Under the pieces are notes generated by a model, which was not told the origin of the DNA, did no database searches, and was given only the letters and a program-made list of their open reading frames with translations. Positions 47,423 to 57,041 of a DNA stretch of 64,000 nucleotides are shown here, piece by piece. Each line of letters begins with the position of its first letter. Position 1 is the stretch's first letter. The stretch comes from Blautia sp. (GTDB lineage: Bacteria; Bacillota; Clostridia; Lachnospirales; Lachnospiraceae): assembly GCA_017475035.1 (NCBI GenBank), contig JAFVGK010000016.1, positions 32,125-96,124 on the forward strand, read 5' to 3'. A program made the position numbers and the translations under genes.

Positions 47423-47452
47423 TTGACAGCCTGTTGCAGCATATGTTATAAT
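47423..47452 (+). promoter_or_regulatory. Promoter upstream of the alpha/beta hydrolase
   Basis: TTGACA (47423-47428), 18-bp spacer, TATAAT (47447-47452), 174 bases before the ATG. Confidence 0.65.
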
Positions 47453-47625: not shown

Positions 47626-48321
47626 ATGGAACCGGACGATATGGACATTAAACATTTTTACATAGAGGCAGGACAAGGAGATCCCATCATTTTACTTCAC
47701 GGAAACGGTGAAAGCTGTGAGTATTTTCGGGGACAGATAGATGAGTTCGCCAAATGGCATCACGTTTATGCCATAGATACAAGAGGACATGGGAAAACAC
47801 CAAGAGGCGGCAGGCCTTTTACGATACGGCAGTTTGCTGATGACCTGTTATGCTTTATGGATGAGTGCCATATTGAGAAAGCCCATTTGCTCGGTTTTTC
47901 CGATGGCGGAAATATCGCGATGATCTTTGCAATGCAGCATCCCGATCGGGTAAACAGGCTGATCCTGAATGGAGCAAATTTAGATCCCCGCGGTGTAAAA
48001 CGATCGGTTCAGATCCCGATCGAAATCGGGTATCGAATAGCAAAACGGTTTTCCGGAAAAAGCGATTCTGCCAGGCTATCCGCGGAAATGCTTGGTCTGA
48101 TGGTTAACGATCCTGATATCAGGCCGGAAGAATTGAAAGCGATCTGCGCGAAAACTCTGGTTATAGCCGGAACAAACGATATGATACTTGCGTCACATAC
48201 CCGCCTGATCGCGGAACATATTCCTGACAGTCAGCTTGTATGGGTGAAAGGCGATCACTTTATCGCAAACAAAAAACCACAAGAGTTCAATCGCGCCGTA
48301 CTTGATTTTCTGAAGGAATGA
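47626..48321 (+). CDS. Alpha/beta-fold hydrolase
   Basis: A 231-residue cytoplasmic serine hydrolase. Features: oxyanion-hole segment ILLHGNGESCEYF, AIDTRGHGKT, nucleophile elbow GFSDGG (Ser), acid in AGTNDMI (Asp) and GDHF (His), completing a catalytic triad. The cap region is short. Substrates in this family are esters, lactones or acyl compounds and cannot be predicted. The ATG at 47626 or the in-frame ATG at 47641 could start it. hypB follows 67 bases later on the same strand, so co-transcription is possible. Confidence 0.85.
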   Translation: MEPDDMDIKHFYIEAGQGDPIILLHGNGESCEYFRGQIDEFAKWHHVYAIDTRGHGKTPRGGRPFTIRQFADDLLCFMDECHIEKAHLLGFSDGGNIAMIFAMQHPDRVNRLILNGANLDPRGVKRSVQIPIEIGYRIAKRFSGKSDSARLSAEMLGLMVNDPDIRPEELKAICAKTLVIAGTNDMILASHTRLIAEHIPDSQLVWVKGDHFIANKKPQEFNRAVLDFLKE

Positions 48322-48388: not shown

Positions 48389-49066
48389 ATGAAAACGGAT
48401 TCCGTACGCGTAATCGAGATTAAAAAAAGTGTCTATGAGAATAATGACCGGGAAGCAGAGCTGCTTCGAAAGGAACTGCGGGAAAAAGGAGTTTTTCTGC
48501 TGAACCTGATGTCTTCGCCCGGCGCCGGGAAAACCAGCACCTTGATCCGTACAGCCGATGCTCTGAAGGAACGCTATAAAATCGGAGTGATGGAAGCGGA
48601 TATCGACTCGGATGTGGATACGAAAGCCATAGCCCGTACGGGGGTCGCTGCGATTCAGCTGCATACCGGAGGAATGTGTCATCTGGACGCCGGCATGACG
48701 CGCCAGGGCCTTGATGAGATTGGTTATGACCTGTTTGACTGCTGTATCCTGGAAAATGTCGGTAACCTGGTGTGCCCGGCGGAATTCGACACGGGCGCTT
48801 CTAAAAATGCCATGATTCTCTCCGTTCCGGAGGGTGATGATAAAGCGTTAAAATATCCGTTGATGTTCTCTGTCTGTGACGTGGTTCTGATTAACAAGAT
48901 GGACGTGGCACCGTATTTTGACTTTGACCTGGATCGATGTGTGGAGAATATCCGGCTGCGAAACACTGACGCAAAAATCATTCCCGTCAGCGCGAAGACG
49001 GGGGAGGGCATGGACGAGTGGTTTGCCTGGCTCTCCGGGCAGATCAAGGCGTGGAAAGAACGGTAG
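48389..49066 (+). CDS. hypB: Nickel-insertion GTPase HypB
   Basis: A 225-residue metal-chaperone GTPase that drives nickel delivery to hydrogenase (or another Ni enzyme) precursors together with HypA. Motifs: P-loop SSPGAGKTS, MEADIDSDVDT, the GTPase-domain metal pair Cys-His in GGMCHLDAGM, ENVGNLVCPAEFD and NKMD. The N-terminal CxxCGC metal site and poly-His region of some HypBs are absent. It is first of a four-gene run (hypB, flavoprotein, hypA, membrane protein). No HypC/D/E/F or hydrogenase subunits appear in the window. Confidence 0.93.
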   Translation: MKTDSVRVIEIKKSVYENNDREAELLRKELREKGVFLLNLMSSPGAGKTSTLIRTADALKERYKIGVMEADIDSDVDTKAIARTGVAAIQLHTGGMCHLDAGMTRQGLDEIGYDLFDCCILENVGNLVCPAEFDTGASKNAMILSVPEGDDKALKYPLMFSVCDVVLINKMDVAPYFDFDLDRCVENIRLRNTDAKIIPVSAKTGEGMDEWFAWLSGQIKAWKER

Positions 49067-49123
49067 TTTATGATTTCTTCGTCTGCGTGATTCTTCGCCG
49101 GCGGGAAAAGAAAGGAATTTCAT

Positions 49124-51679
49124 ATGGCAGGAAAAGATCCAAAATATCCCCTCCGCCCGGAATACGTGGATGTTTCGGGACCGATGAAGGAGGCATTTGC
49201 GGAGCTGGGGAAACTGATCACGGACCGTATCCCCATAAAACTCGGCCTTGAAAAGGTGACAAAGGATGATCCGGAGTATTGGGCAGTACGCATCCTCTGT
49301 TATGATGATGAAACGACAGCAAGATTTGTCATCGATAATTTCAAAGCCATCCGAAAGCCCAGGACCTTTGCTCAGTTAAAAGCTTCTTCCGGCCTTTCGG
49401 ATGAGGAGCTTACCGCGATGCTGGACAAAATCTCCTATACAGGCCTGGTGGAGTATAACCGGGAAAATGAACGGCACGAAAAACAGTGGGTGCTGCCGAT
49501 GTTCGTGCCCGGTTCCGGAGAGTTTTCCAATATGAACCTTAAGCTTATTGAGGAGCATCCTGAACTGGGAATGTTTTTCGAACACATGACGAGACTTCCT
49601 CTTGAGAGGGTTACGCCTATGGTGCCCCCGGGCGGAGCGGGGATCGGGATGCATGTCATTCCTGTGCAGAAGGAAGTGGACATGTGCAGCACAGCCATCA
49701 GCATCGAAAAGATTTCCTATTGGCTGGATAAATATGAAGGAAAATACGCCGCGTCTCCCTGCTCCTGCAGGAGAAGCAGGCTGACCTACGAGGAAGGCTG
49801 CGCGGATGATTTCCACGACTGGTGCATCGCCGTTGGCGATATGGCGGACTATGTGGTGGAGACGCAGAAAGGCGGGCGCTACATTACAAAGGAAGAAGCT
49901 CTTGAGATTTTTGAGAAGGGCGAAGAGAATGGCTTCGTACATCAGATCACCAACATTGACGGCGAGGATAAAATCTTTGCCATCTGCAACTGCAATGTCA
50001 ATGTGTGTTACGCCCTTCGCACGTCCCAGCTGTTCAATACTCCGAACATGTCCCGCAGCGCCTATGTAGCGCATATTGACAAGGATAAATGCGTAGCCTG
50101 CGGGCGGTGCGTGGAAGTATGTCCGGCAGGAGCTGTGTCTCTGGGGCAGAAGCTGTGCAGAAAAGACGGCTCTCCCATGAAATACCCCAAGCACCTGCTT
50201 CCCACCGACAAGCCCTGGAGTCAGGCTGACTGGGATTGGGATTACCGGGACAACAATCGGATCGAAACCCATGATACAGGAACCTCTCCCTGCAAGACTG
50301 CCTGTCCGGCCCACATTGCCGTACAGGGATATTTGAAACTTGCGGCGATGGGGCGCTATCAGGATGCCCTTGCCCTGATCAAGAAGAACAATCCCCTCCC
50401 TGCGGTCTGCGGACATATCTGCAACCGGCGCTGTGAGGATGCCTGTACCAGAGGCAGCATTGACCGCGCGGTTGCCATCGATGAAGTGAAAAAATTCATT
50501 GCCATGCAGGACTTAAACGCCGGGACCCGCTATATCCCGAAAAAGGTTATTCCCCGGGTTCAGGGGGAATTTGAGGAGAAAATTGCCATCATCGGCGCCG
50601 GACCCGCCGGCCTGTCCTGCGCCTTTTATCTGGCGGAAAAGGGATACCGCCCCACGATCTTCGAGAAAAACGAAAAACCAGGCGGGATGCTGGTCTATGG
50701 GATCCCTTCCTATAAACTGGAAAAAGACGTGATCGCCGCGGAAATTGATATTATCCGGGAAATGGGAGCAGAGATCAGGTGCGGCGTCGAGGTGGGCAGG
50801 GATGTCACCATCGAGGAGCTGCGCAGGCAGGGATATAAGGCGTTCTATATCGCCATCGGCTGTCAGGGCGGCCGCAGCATCGGCGTACCCGGAGAAGACG
50901 CCGGGGAGGTTTACACTGCGGTGGATTTCCTGCGGGAGATCAACGAGAAGGAAACATTTGACCTGAAAGGAGACGTGGTGGTCATCGGCGGCGGAAACGT
51001 TGCCATCGACTGTTCCAGAGATGCGAAGATTGCAGGTGAGGGAAAGGTGTACCAGTACTCCCTGGAAACCAGGGACATCATGCCCGCGTCGAAGGACGAA
51101 ATTCGGGAAGCGGAAGAGGACGGCGTGATTCTGGAAGGCGGATGGGGACCCAAGGAGATTCTGAAGGATGAAGAAGGCTGTGTTTCCGGGATTGTCTTAA
51201 AACGGTGCACCAGGGTATTTGGCGAGGACGGGCGTTTTGCCCCTGAATATGATGAGAACGATACAATAACCGTACCCTGCAGGCATATCGTCCTGGCTGT
51301 CGGCCAATCCATCGTCTGGGGAGAGCTTCTTGCCGGTACCGGGGTAAAACTCGGACGCGGAAACGGAGCAGTATGCGACAGTGTCACGTATCAGACGGAT
51401 GATCCGGATATCTTTGCCGGAGGCGACGTGTACACCGGCCCGAAATTTGTGATCGACGCGATTGCGGCAGGCAAGGAGGCGGCGATTTCGATTCATCGGT
51501 ATGTGCAGCCCCATTCTTCTTTGACGATTGGACGCAATCCGAATCATTATGTAGAGCTGAATAAGGACGACATCCGGGTCGATGATTATGATCACAGTGA
51601 ACGTCAGGTTCCGGGCAGACGGGAAAGAGGTCCAAAGAGCTTCCGGGATACCAGGCTGGTCTTACCGAAGAGCAGGTGA
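49124..51679 (+). CDS. Large FAD / iron-sulfur NAD(P) oxidoreductase (GltD/NfnB-like core), C-terminus split off by an apparent frameshift
   Basis: 851 residues to TGA 51677-51679. The N-terminal 300 residues are Cys-containing (SPCSCRRSRL, AICNCNVNVC). CVACGRCVEVCPAGAVSL (about 322) is a 4Fe-4S site. CKTACPAHIAVQGYL followed by AVCGHICNRRCEDACTRGS (about 389-445) is the Fer4_20 domain that delivers electrons to FAD in GltD and DPD. FAD and NAD(P) folds follow: IAIIGAGPAGLSCAFYLAE (about 486) and VVVIGGGNVAIDCSRDA (about 618). After RGPKSFRDT, the reading frame that continues sensibly is one base off (AGLTEEQVKIETARCL). Flavin-based electron transfer between ferredoxin-type centres and NAD(P)H is inferred. 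It lies between hypB and hypA. Confidence 0.85.
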   Translation: MAGKDPKYPLRPEYVDVSGPMKEAFAELGKLITDRIPIKLGLEKVTKDDPEYWAVRILCYDDETTARFVIDNFKAIRKPRTFAQLKASSGLSDEELTAMLDKISYTGLVEYNRENERHEKQWVLPMFVPGSGEFSNMNLKLIEEHPELGMFFEHMTRLPLERVTPMVPPGGAGIGMHVIPVQKEVDMCSTAISIEKISYWLDKYEGKYAASPCSCRRSRLTYEEGCADDFHDWCIAVGDMADYVVETQKGGRYITKEEALEIFEKGEENGFVHQITNIDGEDKIFAICNCNVNVCYALRTSQLFNTPNMSRSAYVAHIDKDKCVACGRCVEVCPAGAVSLGQKLCRKDGSPMKYPKHLLPTDKPWSQADWDWDYRDNNRIETHDTGTSPCKTACPAHIAVQGYLKLAAMGRYQDALALIKKNNPLPAVCGHICNRRCEDACTRGSIDRAVAIDEVKKFIAMQDLNAGTRYIPKKVIPRVQGEFEEKIAIIGAGPAGLSCAFYLAEKGYRPTIFEKNEKPGGMLVYGIPSYKLEKDVIAAEIDIIREMGAEIRCGVEVGRDVTIEELRRQGYKAFYIAIGCQGGRSIGVPGEDAGEVYTAVDFLREINEKETFDLKGDVVVIGGGNVAIDCSRDAKIAGEGKVYQYSLETRDIMPASKDEIREAEEDGVILEGGWGPKEILKDEEGCVSGIVLKRCTRVFGEDGRFAPEYDENDTITVPCRHIVLAVGQSIVWGELLAGTGVKLGRGNGAVCDSVTYQTDDPDIFAGGDVYTGPKFVIDAIAAGKEAAISIHRYVQPHSSLTIGRNPNHYVELNKDDIRVDDYDHSERQVPGRRERGPKSFRDTRLVLPKSR

Positions 51680-51918
51680 AGATTGAGACCGCGAGATGCC
51701 TGTCCTGCGGGGCTTCTATTGTGGATGAGAATCAATGCGTAGGCTGCGGCCTGTGCACGACCCGCTGTGAGTTTGACGCGATTCACTTACAGCGTGACAA
51801 TCCTGAATGTTCCACGATGCGCAAGAGCGAAGACAAATTGAAACACATTTTGGTTTATGGAGCAAAGAACACGATTAAGCTGAGGTTTAAAACCAAGACC
51901 ACTCCGGATTACAGGTAA
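51676..51918 (+). CDS. C-terminal 4Fe-4S domain of the same oxidoreductase, in the shifted frame
   Basis: 80 residues from GTG 51676, overlapping the preceding stop codon. The cysteine pattern CLSCGASIVDENQCVGCGLC then TTRCEFD gives CxxC and CxxCxxCxxxC sites, i.e. ferredoxin-like clusters. The frame can be extended back to about 51645 (AGLTEEQVKIE), exactly where the 851-residue frame loses sense. It could be a separate small ferredoxin subunit made by GTG re-initiation, but a one-base deletion near ATACCAGG (51647-51654), real or a sequencing error, explains it better. Confidence 0.7.
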   Translation: MKIETARCLSCGASIVDENQCVGCGLCTTRCEFDAIHLQRDNPECSTMRKSEDKLKHILVYGAKNTIKLRFKTKTTPDYR

Positions 51919-51923
51919 GGCCG

Positions 51924-52268
51924 ATGCATGAACTAAGCGTGGTATTTTATATTATCGAACAGGTAGAAGAGGTGGCTCAGCAGAATGAGGTCGATCGCGT
52001 AACCCGTGTGATCCTGGATCTGGGGGAGGTTTCCACGGTGATCCCCTCTTATCTGACGGACTGTTGGAAATGGGCCAGAAATAAGCATCCGCTGCTTACG
52101 GACTGTGAGCTGACCATCGAACCGATCGAAGCTGTCACCTATTGCGAGGCCTGCCGGAAAACCTACCCCACGATCAGACATGGCAGGATCTGTCCCTGGT
52201 GCGGGAGCCCCAGAACCTTTCTGAAGCAGGGAAACGAGTTCCTGATCAGGGAAATGGAGGTGGAGTAA
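51924..52268 (+). CDS. hypA: Nickel metallochaperone HypA
   Basis: A 114-residue protein. It begins MHELSV, whose His2 with the N-terminal amine forms the nickel site. The zinc domain has CEAC and CPWC separated by 14 residues. It partners HypB in nickel delivery. It lies five bases after the Fe-S reading frame and about 140 bases before the membrane-protein gene. The spacing of hypB, oxidoreductase and hypA implies one transcript. Confidence 0.93.
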   Translation: MHELSVVFYIIEQVEEVAQQNEVDRVTRVILDLGEVSTVIPSYLTDCWKWARNKHPLLTDCELTIEPIEAVTYCEACRKTYPTIRHGRICPWCGSPRTFLKQGNEFLIREMEVE

Positions 52269-52333
52269 AAGAAAGATCCTTGTTCCGCGCGTTCCTGCGC
52301 GGGTAACATAGGGGCAGATATGAAAGGTTTCTC

Positions 52334-52370
52334 TTTGATCATTCGTAATTTTTGATCGAGAATGATCAAA
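52334..52370 (+). promoter_or_regulatory. Stem-loop between hypA and the membrane-protein gene
   Basis: TTTGATCATTC pairs exactly with GAATGATCAAA around a 15-nt loop. No T-run follows, so it is not a typical terminator. It could be an mRNA processing or regulator-binding site 35 nt before the next ATG. Confidence 0.45.
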
Positions 52371-52405
52371 AAGGCGTACAGAGCAAGAAAGGAAGGAAAG
52401 GGCTT

Positions 52406-53518
52406 ATGTTTTTTCAGATCACTGATTTGTGGCAGATTCTGGGCTGGTGCCTGGTATTTATCGGCTTAATCATCATGAATGAACTCGGGCGGCGCACAAA
52501 AGCAGGAGGAATTCTTATTTTTGTCATCATACCCTGTGTACTCACGGCATATTATGTGCTGGCTCATCTGGGAATGTTCGGCGGAAATGCCAATCCGACA
52601 GTGGCATACATGGATGGCTGGTTCCATTATTTCAAGCTGTATGCGGCGGATATCGGCTGTGTCGGCTTCATGATGATCAAATATAAATGGGGGATCGGAA
52701 AAGAAAAGTGGTTTGCCTGGTTCCCATGGCTGATCGTGGCTGCCAACATTATGATCGCAAATGTTTCCGACATTGAGTCGGCTCTGGCAGCGTATCGCAT
52801 TTCGGGAAACCTTGCGGGGACATGGTGGGCTTCCAATGAAGGCGTATTTCTGTATGGCGGCTGGTGGAATGTGATCAACGCCCTGGCAGGCCTGATTAAT
52901 ATATTCTGCATGACCGGATGCATACATCTGTATACTTCCAAAGACGCAAACAAGTCCGATATGCTCTGGCCGGACATGACCATCTGGTTTATCGTGGCAT
53001 ATGATGTATGGAACTTCGAGTATACCTATCTGAATCTTCCCACCCATACCTGGTACTGCGGCGTAGCGCTGCTGCTGGCGCCGACATTTGCCAATGCTCT
53101 GTGGAACAAGGGCGCCTGGATTCAGAACCGTGCCAATACTCTGGCAATCTGGTGCATGTGGGCGCAGACCGTGCCGCTCTTCCAGCTGTCGGGACGTTTT
53201 GCCGCGGTACTGCCGTCCTTATATGGCGGAGCAACGGCAGCAGGCGTGTCTACCATGGATCTCTATTCCAAAGCTATCGAGCTTTATAACGCCGGCCAGG
53301 GGAAGACAGCGGCTGCCGGTGAAGCGATCGCGGCTATGGGTATTACCGCGGATCCAAGGATGCAGGGCTTTGTGGCTATGATGGCGATAGCAGTAAATGT
53401 CCTTTGCATCTCGGTGATCATCAAGCGCGCGATCCGTATCGGCGGCAATCCTTACTCGAACGAAGTATTCAAGGGAACAAGGGATTACGAGGAAGCTATG
53501 GCAAGGGCGGCCATGTGA
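52406..53518 (+). CDS. Nine-helix integral membrane protein of unknown function linked to hypAB
   Basis: A 370-residue protein with about nine membrane helices (for example LGWCLVFIGLIIMNELG, FVIIPCVLTAYYVLAHLG, WLIVAANIMIANV, FMMIKYKWGIG). Trp, Tyr and His are unusually frequent near the helices (DGWFHYFKLY, GGWWNVINALAG, NFEYTYLN, PTHTWYCG). From memory it resembles an uncharacterised Firmicute family (I believe DUF5692), which I cannot verify. The ATG at 52406 is preceded by AAGGAAAGG. It is last of the hypB-oxidoreductase-hypA run and followed by a strong terminator. A redox or metal role is speculation from context. Confidence 0.75.
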   Translation: MFFQITDLWQILGWCLVFIGLIIMNELGRRTKAGGILIFVIIPCVLTAYYVLAHLGMFGGNANPTVAYMDGWFHYFKLYAADIGCVGFMMIKYKWGIGKEKWFAWFPWLIVAANIMIANVSDIESALAAYRISGNLAGTWWASNEGVFLYGGWWNVINALAGLINIFCMTGCIHLYTSKDANKSDMLWPDMTIWFIVAYDVWNFEYTYLNLPTHTWYCGVALLLAPTFANALWNKGAWIQNRANTLAIWCMWAQTVPLFQLSGRFAAVLPSLYGGATAAGVSTMDLYSKAIELYNAGQGKTAAAGEAIAAMGITADPRMQGFVAMMAIAVNVLCISVIIKRAIRIGGNPYSNEVFKGTRDYEEAMARAAM

Positions 53519-53624: not shown

Positions 53625-53670
53625 AAAAAGGTCATGAAAAATGAGCATGCTCATTTTTCATGACCTTTTT
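53625..53670. terminator. Perfect 46-nt palindrome (element B8) acting as bidirectional terminator
   Basis: AAAAAGGTCATGAAAAATGA extends to a perfect 23-bp stem with its reverse complement, ending TTTTT on both strands. It separates the hyp cluster from the convergent LacI gene and carries the GGTCATG core of element B. Half copies of repeat F flank it. Confidence 0.92.
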
Positions 53671-53687
53671 GCACAGCTCCTGATCCT

Positions 53688-55109: not shown

Positions 55110-55203
55110 TCATGATTACAATCTTAACGCAGCCCGAAGAAACCCACAACAGCATCAGTTAAAGAAATGAAAAGGAATAAGGAAAGAGAGGTGTTTGGTC
55201 AAA

Positions 55204-55728
55204 ATGAAGTCAGTTTACCATGTTTTCGATCGCCTCGTTGAAATCATCGAAAACATTCTCTGTGGTGTGCCCATGGGCATCATACTGGTCGTAGAGATCG
55301 TACAGGTATTCTTCCGGTACGTTCTGCGAAGCGGCATCCCGTGGAGTGACGAGGTCATCATCAATTTGCTGGTGGTGTGCGTGATGTTCGGCGGCGCGAA
55401 AGCGATTCGTACCGGTGAACACACGGAGCTTACCGGCACATCGGATTCCCTGCCTGAAGGTCCCCGCAAGGTGGTTCGCGTGATTACCACATTTGCAACG
55501 TTGGCTTTCCTGGCGATCTTTGTGTATTCCAGTTTCATCTTTGTCCGCAGTGCGGGAAGATTGAAAACGACCAACCTGCGTATTCCCATGAAATATTGTT
55601 ATATGGTTCTGGCAGTCGGTTCCTGCTTCATGCTTTACGAGTTCGTGAAGACCATCAGGTACAGGATTACACGTCCGGCTATTGACGTGTATGATCCCGA
55701 GAACTATAGAGGGGAGGATGACGAATGA
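55204..55728 (+). CDS. TRAP transporter small membrane subunit (DctQ type)
   Basis: A 174-residue protein with four membrane helices (GVPMGIILVVEIVQVFFRYV with W-S-D-E in RSGIPWSDEVIINLLVV, then FATLAFLAIFVYSS and YMVLAVGSCFMLYEF), the DctQ pattern. It pairs with the large DctM subunit in sodium-driven uptake of organic acids. The start is ATG 55204, with GAGAGG 12 nt upstream; a TTG at 55195 is possible but too near the SD. Its stop overlaps the dctM start by four bases. Confidence 0.9.
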   Translation: MKSVYHVFDRLVEIIENILCGVPMGIILVVEIVQVFFRYVLRSGIPWSDEVIINLLVVCVMFGGAKAIRTGEHTELTGTSDSLPEGPRKVVRVITTFATLAFLAIFVYSSFIFVRSAGRLKTTNLRIPMKYCYMVLAVGSCFMLYEFVKTIRYRITRPAIDVYDPENYRGEDDE

Positions 55729-57041
55729 ATACGGGACTGTTGATTTTGATTCTGGTAATTGTGGCTTTTCTCCTGATCATCTTTGGTGTACCGGTGTATG
55801 CCAGCCTTGGTCTTGCGGGTACCATCAGCCTGATCGCTCTGACGATTACCAAGGGAGCGGCTCTTTCCTGGATCGTTATTCCTTCTTCCATATACAATGG
55901 AGCAACCACGATTTCCCTGCTTGCGATTCCTTTCTATGTGTTTGCCGGTGAGCTGATGAACAAGGGCGGCATCACGAAGAAGCTGGTGGCTTTCGCACAG
56001 CTGCTGATCGGACGTCTGCCTGCTTCTCTTGCTCAGGCTAACATTGTATCCAGTATGTTTTTCGGCGGCATCACCGGTTCCTGCCAGGCAGATACCTCCT
56101 GCATCGGAGGCTTGCTGATCCCCGCCATGGTGGACGAAGGCTATACTCCTGAGGAAGCCGTCGGCGTCACCATCACCTCTTCCACCTGCGGCCCGATCAT
56201 TCCGCCAAGTATTATGATGGTAGTGTTCGGCGTAGCAGTGGGCTGCTCCATTGGCGGTCTCTTTATGGCAGGCGTCATTCCGGGACTGCTGATCGGCTTC
56301 TCTCTGATGGGAATGGTGCTTCTAAGGGACCGCAAGTATCATTTCCCACGTCGTACAGGCGGCTATACCAAAGAAGAACGCAGACGCATTATAAAGGAAG
56401 GTCTGCTGCCTCTGGGCATGCCCATTATCGTGTTCGGCGGTATCATGGGCGGTGTGTTCACAGCGACCGAGGCCGGTGCGGCAGCAGTGTTTTATAGTCT
56501 GATCGTAGGCTTGTTCATTACCAGGAACGTGAAGGTGAAGGATCTCTATCCGATGCTCTTAAAGAGTGCTACAATGTCCGCCACGGTATTATTGATCATT
56601 GCCTGCGCGAAGATCTTCAGCTACGCTCTGGCGACGCTCCAGATGTCCACGATCGTAGCCAATGCCATTCTTTCTCTGACGCAGAATAAGTACGTGTTTC
56701 TTCTGCTGGTTAACATTGTATTATTGATCATGGGCATGTTCATGGACGGTTCCGCAGCCGTGATCCTGCTGGCTCCGATCCTTATGCCGGTTGCCAGCAC
56801 TATGGGCATCAGCACGCTGCACTTCGGCGTCATCATGGTGCTGAATCTCATCATCGGAGCCGGGACGCCTCCGCTGGGCGCCTGCCTGTTTATCGGCTGT
56901 AAGATCGCCGATATCCCTGTAGAGCGTGGCGTCAAAGGAGCGATTCCTTACATTCTGACGGAGCTGGTTGTTCTGATCCTGGTCACCTATATTCCGGCTC
57001 TGTGTACCTGGTTCCCGGCACTGATGGGTTATGCAATCTGA
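55725..57041 (+). CDS. TRAP transporter large permease (DctM type)
   Basis: A 438-residue permease with about 11-12 membrane helices. Family motifs: FGVPVYASLGLAGTISL, LLAIPFYVFAGELMNKGGIT, MFFGGITGSCQADTSCIGGL, TSSTCGPIIPPSIMMVVFGV and ATEAGAAAVFYSLIVGLF. It forms the channel for solute-bound DctP. Coupled to dctQ by an ATGA overlap. Confidence 0.95.
   Translation: MNTGLLILILVIVAFLLIIFGVPVYASLGLAGTISLIALTITKGAALSWIVIPSSIYNGATTISLLAIPFYVFAGELMNKGGITKKLVAFAQLLIGRLPASLAQANIVSSMFFGGITGSCQADTSCIGGLLIPAMVDEGYTPEEAVGVTITSSTCGPIIPPSIMMVVFGVAVGCSIGGLFMAGVIPGLLIGFSLMGMVLLRDRKYHFPRRTGGYTKEERRRIIKEGLLPLGMPIIVFGGIMGGVFTATEAGAAAVFYSLIVGLFITRNVKVKDLYPMLLKSATMSATVLLIIACAKIFSYALATLQMSTIVANAILSLTQNKYVFLLLVNIVLLIMGMFMDGSAAVILLAPILMPVASTMGISTLHFGVIMVLNLIIGAGTPPLGACLFIGCKIADIPVERGVKGAIPYILTELVVLILVTYIPALCTWFPALMGYAI

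Follow-up and report, generated by a model that had tools for sequence, protein, structure and literature searches.

An IsrA-like reductase gene cluster with hypA and hypB in a Blautia genome and its association with HypB across related genomes

A 64,000-nucleotide stretch of a Blautia sp. genome (the window) carries hypB, an Fe–S/FAD oxidoreductase gene, hypA and a DUF5692 membrane protein gene in a row. By its sequence, and likened to IsrA through the published description of that protein, the set is assigned to the clade-9-type (IsrA-like) reductase clusters. In a census of 293 genomes of the class, HypB is present wherever a full-length IsrA-like protein is encoded, also in genomes that lack HypD. 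The explanation we moderately favour is that of an IsrA-like reductase into whose N-terminal domain HypA and HypB would load nickel, with DUF5692 as an optional partner. The kind of cluster, its HypA, HypB and DUF5692 neighbours and the proposal of nickel insertion are already known. The published argument is one of gene neighbourhood, to which a genome-wide association with HypB, split by the presence of HypD, is added here. The usual reading of HypA and HypB is as hydrogenase genes. Should they serve the IsrA family, the gut and rumen genomes that carry this family are being misread, and there is one more kind of nickel enzyme.

The gene cluster and its oxidoreductase

The open reading frames of the window give the plus-strand order hypB (48389–49066), isrA-like oxidoreductase (49124–51679 as read), a short ferredoxin frame (51676–51918, GTG start, 80 residues), hypA (51924–52268) and DUF5692 membrane protein (52406–53518; the frame is listed from a TTG at 52352, the ATG at 52406 being the likelier start). 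Reading frames and profile matches agree with an earlier note on this DNA, which had listed here, in order, hypB, an oxidoreductase gene, hypA and a gene for a membrane protein of nine helices. An alpha/beta hydrolase gene (47626–48321, plus strand; PF00561) ends 67 bases upstream of hypB and is possibly co-transcribed with it. It gave no match above 40 bits in 80 related loci (the best 80 of 413 relatives among candidate genomes), which places it outside the conserved cluster. From the hydrolase to DUF5692, the gaps are 67, 57, −4, 5 and 137 bases. Upstream of the hydrolase lies a plus-strand promoter-like site (47423–47452) with a sigma-70-type consensus of 12/12 and an 18-base spacer; the region has 11 such sites in all, compared with 9.0 on average in shuffled sequence. 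Past DUF5692, a long near-perfect inverted repeat followed by a T run (53630–53672), absent from the output of the terminator scan, may be a terminator. Two genes at 55195–57041 resemble what we take to be TRAP-transporter membrane subunits.

The oxidoreductase comprises an N-terminal domain (N-domain) and, by Pfam, one Fer4 ferredoxin domain, a DPD-II-type Fe–S domain and an FAD/NAD(P)H domain, in that order. Its best NCBIfam model, PRK12771, scores under the cut-off. The earlier description as a GltD/NfnB-like flavoprotein with cysteine clusters is borne out by matches to Fer4, Fer4_20 and Pyr_redox_2, and by structure comparison of an intact relative, L091 (predicted model with pLDDT 86.7 and pTM 0.89). 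Among the 50 Foldseek matches listed for L091, the top solved structures are Nfn-ABC, NfnI, glutamate synthase and dihydropyrimidine dehydrogenase (DPD) enzymes, over 423–555 alignment columns. In our reading these cover the flavin half, and the ranges of the sequence matches agree. The N-domain carries six cysteines, two CxC motifs and two more (C213, C215, C234, C288, C290 and C295 in the window protein), which are invariant in two alignments: A1 (nine rows: the window and eight relatives) and A2 (44 rows: the window and 43 of 78 full-length proteins). In alignment A5, whose rows are cut at 312 codons, C295 is no more than nearly invariant.

As read, the protein of the window ends after 851 residues, near 51.65 kb, ahead of the C-terminal ferredoxin. 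The latter, with its own Fer4 match, is in the separate frame at 51676–51918, which overlaps the oxidoreductase frame by four bases. This break corrects the earlier note, which had overlooked it. All eight relatives in A1 read through the C-terminal ferredoxin domain, and it is fused in 78/78 of the full-length relatives, which come from 78 of the 80 loci and span 897 to 974 residues (the proteins of L073, with 614 residues, and L090, with 728, are excluded from that set). The break may be real in the organism or a fault of assembly, which is possible because the genome is a draft of 200 contigs.

Taken as real, the break could mean that the window cluster is decaying, isrA being a pseudogene and hypA, hypB and DUF5692 its remnants. 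The cluster at L025:8091-10247, with a split N-domain, hypA and a shortened hypB, is apparently decayed. Two genomes (G323 and G347; loci L250 and L251) have a lone hypB at the place of the whole cluster in Butyrivibrio-type relatives, as judged by the following genes. In related Butyrivibrio loci (L030, L043 and L078), DUF5692, hypB, isrA and hypA are all present. Downstream of the lone hypB, L250 and L251 encode a GGDEF protein (scanned in L250) and have what is presumably a topoisomerase-like gene. Against decay of the window cluster stand the single break, the otherwise open frames of hypB, hypA, DUF5692 and the 80-residue ferredoxin, the draft state of the assembly and the intact genes of the nearest relatives; we regard this account as unlikely.

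HypA, HypB and DUF5692 in related genomes

HypB of the window matches TIGR00073 with 238.8 bits against a cut-off of 121.2. It has the G-domain residues C97, H98 and C129 and no N-terminal cysteine cluster; the C, H and C are conserved in 61/61 aligned HypB proteins of related loci (61 of the 62 loci with hypB, after a length filter). HypA matches PF01155 over the cut-off (103.1 bits) and TIGR00100 under it (74.7 against 88.1). Its H2, E3 and two CxxC zinc motifs are in place, and H2, E3 and the four cysteines recur in 70/70 aligned HypA proteins. We take C97, H98 and C129 of HypB, and H2, E3 and the CxxC motifs of HypA, to be metal sites. The accessible text of Kronen et al. 2023 (PMC10134865) agrees on these residues.

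Most of the 80 loci, the best of 413 relatives, belong to Lachnospiraceae or to further Bacillota of rumen or gut, and the rest include Treponema, Collinsella, Lancefieldella and a Bacteroidales bin. Within 6 kb of the isrA-like gene, hypA is found in 70 of these 80 loci, hypB in 62 and DUF5692 in 39, and five have none of the three. For the 53 of them flanked by 4 kb or more in each direction, the counts are 50, 41, 28 and two. The association of the four genes, whose co-occurrence the earlier note had proposed as a check, is not chance. Neighbouring genes were also considered as a clue to the substrate and were set aside: families common to at least four of the 80 loci were general (ABC-ATPase-like in 16) or regulator-like. 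One regulator-like family occurs in 16 of the 80, mostly divergent, and a similar gene in L120 is of the GntR/FCD type.

In the census, a full-length IsrA N-domain was found in 31 of the 293 genomes (38 genes), outside which count fall six weak matches with E-values of 7e-20 to 2e-15 (in G146, G293, G254 and G218, a second one in G202 and a third in G247). HypB is encoded in 56 genomes (65 genes), HypD in 60 and DUF5692 in 22 (23 genes). HypB is present in 31/31 genomes with full-length IsrA versus 25/262 without (Fisher 8e-27, not corrected for kinship), and HypD in 14 of those 31. None of the 23 genomes with HypD and no HypB has IsrA. Among the 19 with HypB and no HypD, 17 have a full isrA gene 6 kb or less from hypB, and an N-domain protein lies beside hypB in 19/19; the other two cases are a contig-cut fragment (G254: 85 residues, directly after hypB at a contig end) and a stand-alone protein (G276). 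Six genomes have IsrA, HypD and more than one HypB. A separate HypB lies beside each of IsrA and HypD in five (G137, G165, G247, G341 and G343); in the sixth, G299, isrA has one HypB next to it and an Ech-type operon includes another. By position, isrA is no more than 6 kb away for 33 of the 65 HypB genes, one of which has HypD within 10 kb as well; 17 are near HypD only and 15 near neither. The last group consists of those of G254 and G276, ten in Ech-type NiFe hydrogenase operons (large subunit Pfam-checked in five, assigned by sequence likeness in the remainder) and three others. Of these three, one (L249) adjoins a partial hypE, a match under the model's cut-off, and two are the lone hypB genes of G323 and G347. 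The census supports the view that HypA and HypB serve the IsrA-like enzyme rather than a hydrogenase.

The source genome (5.08 Mb, 200 contigs, 93.6% complete, 5.0% contamination) fits this view. The NiFe large-subunit model PF00374, which also catches Ech-type subunits over its cut-off (5/5 tried), has no match in this 93.6% complete assembly, nor has HypD. A search for CO dehydrogenase with the Prismane model gave two matches, both hydroxylamine reductases. One HypB scores over the cut-off, that of the window, beside isrA on contig C24; a second match is weak and lies below it. The earlier note's statement that there are no hydrogenase structural genes holds genome-wide in this assembly for the NiFe large subunit, and its statement on hypCDEF holds for HypD, the member searched. 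The result that the note had named as refuting, a complete NiFe operon with hypCDEF elsewhere and the other two genes occurring independently of hypAB, was not found: neither PF00374 nor HypD matched, and HypB accompanies full-length IsrA in 31/31 genomes. As a qualification at the level of genes, hypB lies within 6 kb of 32/38 census isrA genes, and 6/38 are without it. The proposal that the chaperones work without a hydrogenase and most likely serve the flavoprotein is supported, nickel itself being the conditional part.

HypA and HypB might instead serve another nickel enzyme of the cell, such as a LarA-family protein encoded elsewhere. The source genome has one LarA-family match (PF09861; L028:1381-2757, contig C162; nearest NCBIfam model LarAH10, under its cut-off), and in another genome, at L238, an N-domain gene with hypA and hypB is followed by CO dehydrogenase. 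LarA enzymes have their own cofactor pathway, LarBCE. In addition, neither a NiFe hydrogenase nor a CO dehydrogenase was found in the source genome, and its sole over-cut-off HypB is beside isrA on C24, with the LarA gene away on C162. This alternative appears very unlikely.

The DUF5692 protein matches PF18948 with 404.1 bits against a cut-off of 27. Its predicted model (pLDDT 87.4, pTM 0.85) has nine long helices and no PDB fold match at E≤0.001; the sequence search gave no relative at E≤1, and no cofactor motif was seen in the alignment. The earlier note had considered the membrane protein as a nickel protein or as part of an electron-transfer complex. DUF5692 does follow IsrA closely: 21/22 census genomes with DUF5692 also have IsrA, and for 15/23 DUF5692 genes isrA is no farther than 6 kb away. 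Yet 10/31 IsrA genomes have no DUF5692, and all ten have HypB. Together with the missing solved fold relative and cofactor motif, this leaves a DUF5692 nickel client or membrane electron carrier unsupported and highly improbable, and an optional partner of the reductase is the reading retained here.

The N-domain outside the reductase

The N-domain has no Pfam match and no solved PDB relative at E<0.01; weak matches to winged-helix regulators cover its first part. It also stands alone, with one or two ferredoxin clusters. These proteins of about 270–480 residues share the six cysteines and the following Fer4 with the IsrA family and differ from it in having no FAD/NAD(P)H half. All six cysteines are present in 112/112 rows that span the region. 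Of these, 50 are IsrA rows, among which the window appears two times, and five of the remaining 62 are full IsrA too; an additional, fragmentary row is not among the 112. A hyp match lies within 5 kb in 8/69 stand-alone rows and none in 61/69. The eight include a fragment (L115) and a doubtful hypB match (L217, E 9e-11), and a second row of L239 in the set is also a fragment. The 60 larger regions behind these counts are a hand-picked subset of the places found and not independent sequences, L184 and L238 both being from genome G659.

In four loci (L114, L182, L183 and L184), the stand-alone gene is followed directly by hypA and hypB. The clearest is G276 (L114, 7237-9303), with a 385-residue N-domain protein, a short hypA-like gene (84 residues, covering 68 of 112 model positions), hypB and no HypD. 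It is the sole clean case, because the absence of HypD is established there only and the genome of L184 has a CO dehydrogenase. L182 has an FAD-binding protein just upstream of the unit. At L238:6851-12609 the order is N-domain, hypA, hypB, a MinD/CooC-like ATPase, a ferredoxin-like gene and CO dehydrogenase (TIGR01702), and in L232 the hyp genes are 2.2 kb from the N-domain gene, with an FAD-type protein between. Near stand-alone genes, hypA and hypB recur in five loci each, always on the same strand. Judged by appearance, the remaining recurrent families are general ones (ABC-ATPase-like in 11 loci, sensor- or regulator-like in 7 to 9, aminotransferase-like in five). The stand-alone units, chiefly that of G276, point to the N-domain rather than the flavin half as the client of HypA and HypB. 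They also make the nickel question testable on a small protein.

The same family also supplies arguments for a plainer account, that the N-domain centre is an ordinary Fe–S centre and HypA and HypB are metal-handling helpers that deliver another metal or serve a protein encoded elsewhere. The six cysteines are equally conserved in stand-alone proteins without hyp neighbours, some of them in genomes (G146, G218 and G293) that have no HypB match at E≤1e-30. The cysteine centre alone therefore does not need HypA and HypB, and the six cysteines by themselves are no evidence of nickel. A residue that separates hyp-linked from unlinked members was searched for in these alignments and none was found, which leaves this account without a discriminating ligand to oppose it. 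Position 273 was tried as a marker of a nickel ligand and rejected. It is His in all rows of A1, A2 and A5 and Gln in the first five unlinked relatives, but His also in 28/61 unlinked rows; in the hyp-linked L238 and L232 (within 5 kb) it is Leu and Thr, evidence confounded by the adjacent CO dehydrogenase and the 2.2-kb distance, respectively. On such comparisons, the published choice of the six cysteines as nickel site is weakened by the relatives without hyp neighbours and is not established. Set against a plain Fe–S centre are the presence of HypB in 31/31 IsrA genomes, the N-domain protein found in 19/19 genomes with HypB and no HypD, and the retention of metal-site residues in both chaperones. 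We judge the plain centre rather unlikely.

Proposed mechanism and relation to known systems

The favoured explanation, nickel loading of an IsrA-like reductase, can be stated as a sequence of steps in which the nickel, the substrate, the direction of electron flow and the role of DUF5692 are what we infer. NAD(P)H would reduce FAD in the NfnB-like half. Electrons would then enter a chain of [4Fe-4S] clusters, two in the DPD-II-type domain and ferredoxin-type ones before it and, in intact copies, after it. This chain would feed a metal centre on the six invariant cysteines of the N-terminal domain, and the centre would reduce an unsaturated C=C bond, perhaps of a conjugated diene. HypB and HypA would load nickel into this domain without HypC–F, and DUF5692 would be optional, a partner in the membrane that perhaps deals with a lipophilic substrate. 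A bolder version, tentative and possible rather than probable, is that HypA and HypB alone mature the N-domain, which would then be a new nickel-protein module occurring free or fused in IsrA, and that the fused form is the first NAD(P)H-driven family of nickel C=C hydrogenases, present in many rumen and gut anaerobes. A role in rumen fatty-acid biohydrogenation is speculation, prompted by the presence of the cluster in Butyrivibrio and Treponema. A gene for a conjugated linoleic acid reductase has already been cited in print (a title in the reference list of PMC4478896).

Much of the background comes from the isr system of Acetobacterium wieringae ISORED-2/strain Y, also covered in the accessible part of Jin 2022 (PMC9765523). 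Kronen et al. 2023 (PMC10134865), in the text accessible, describe IsrA, a protein of 901 residues whose abundance is higher with isoprene, as a proposed isoprene reductase. It has sites for FAD and NAD(P)H, a Cys6 site that includes two CxC motifs, and four [4Fe-4S] clusters. In the isr operon, two hypA genes, hypB and a ferredoxin gene lie beside isrA, and among 988 IsrA homologs the neighbour frequencies are 0.73 for HypA, 0.56 for HypB, 0.40 for DUF5692 and 0.21 for TetR. According to the same text, the strain has neither NiFe hydrogenase genes nor hypCDEF, and HypA and HypB are proposed to insert nickel into IsrA, perhaps at Cys6. That the chaperones serve the flavoprotein is thus not a new proposal, having been printed there. 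Other Acetobacterium with IsrA homologs do not reduce isoprene (PMC10134865, accessible text). In Jin 2025 (PMC12509576), the genes are named a putative diene reductase cluster. Among 5.39 million open-access papers, DUF5692 was found in Kronen et al. only. A mostly open-access search found no biochemical proof of nickel or activity for the IsrA family. For the ferredoxin of the isr operon, the accessible text reports no association with HypA or HypB; unlike it, ferredoxin-type N-domain proteins in the stand-alone units described above can have one.

The family shares Fer4_20 and the FAD/NAD(P)H domain, its central and C-terminal half, with NfnB/Nfn-ABC, GltD and DPD, as seen by sequence and Foldseek, and differs from them in the extra N-domain of about 310 residues and the C-terminal ferredoxin. 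HypA and HypB are shared with the HypABCDEF maturation of NiFe hydrogenases, whereas the source genome gave no match to HypD or the NiFe large subunit. The closest likeness is to the isr operon. Common to both are the Cys6 N-domain, the DPD-II-type Fe–S, FAD/NAD(P)H and ferredoxin sites, the adjacent hypA and hypB, and a genome without a NiFe hydrogenase. In contrast to the isr operon, the window has one hypA and, among the reading frames of 46–56 kb, no separate 350-residue ferredoxin gene, and it carries DUF5692 and the frame break.
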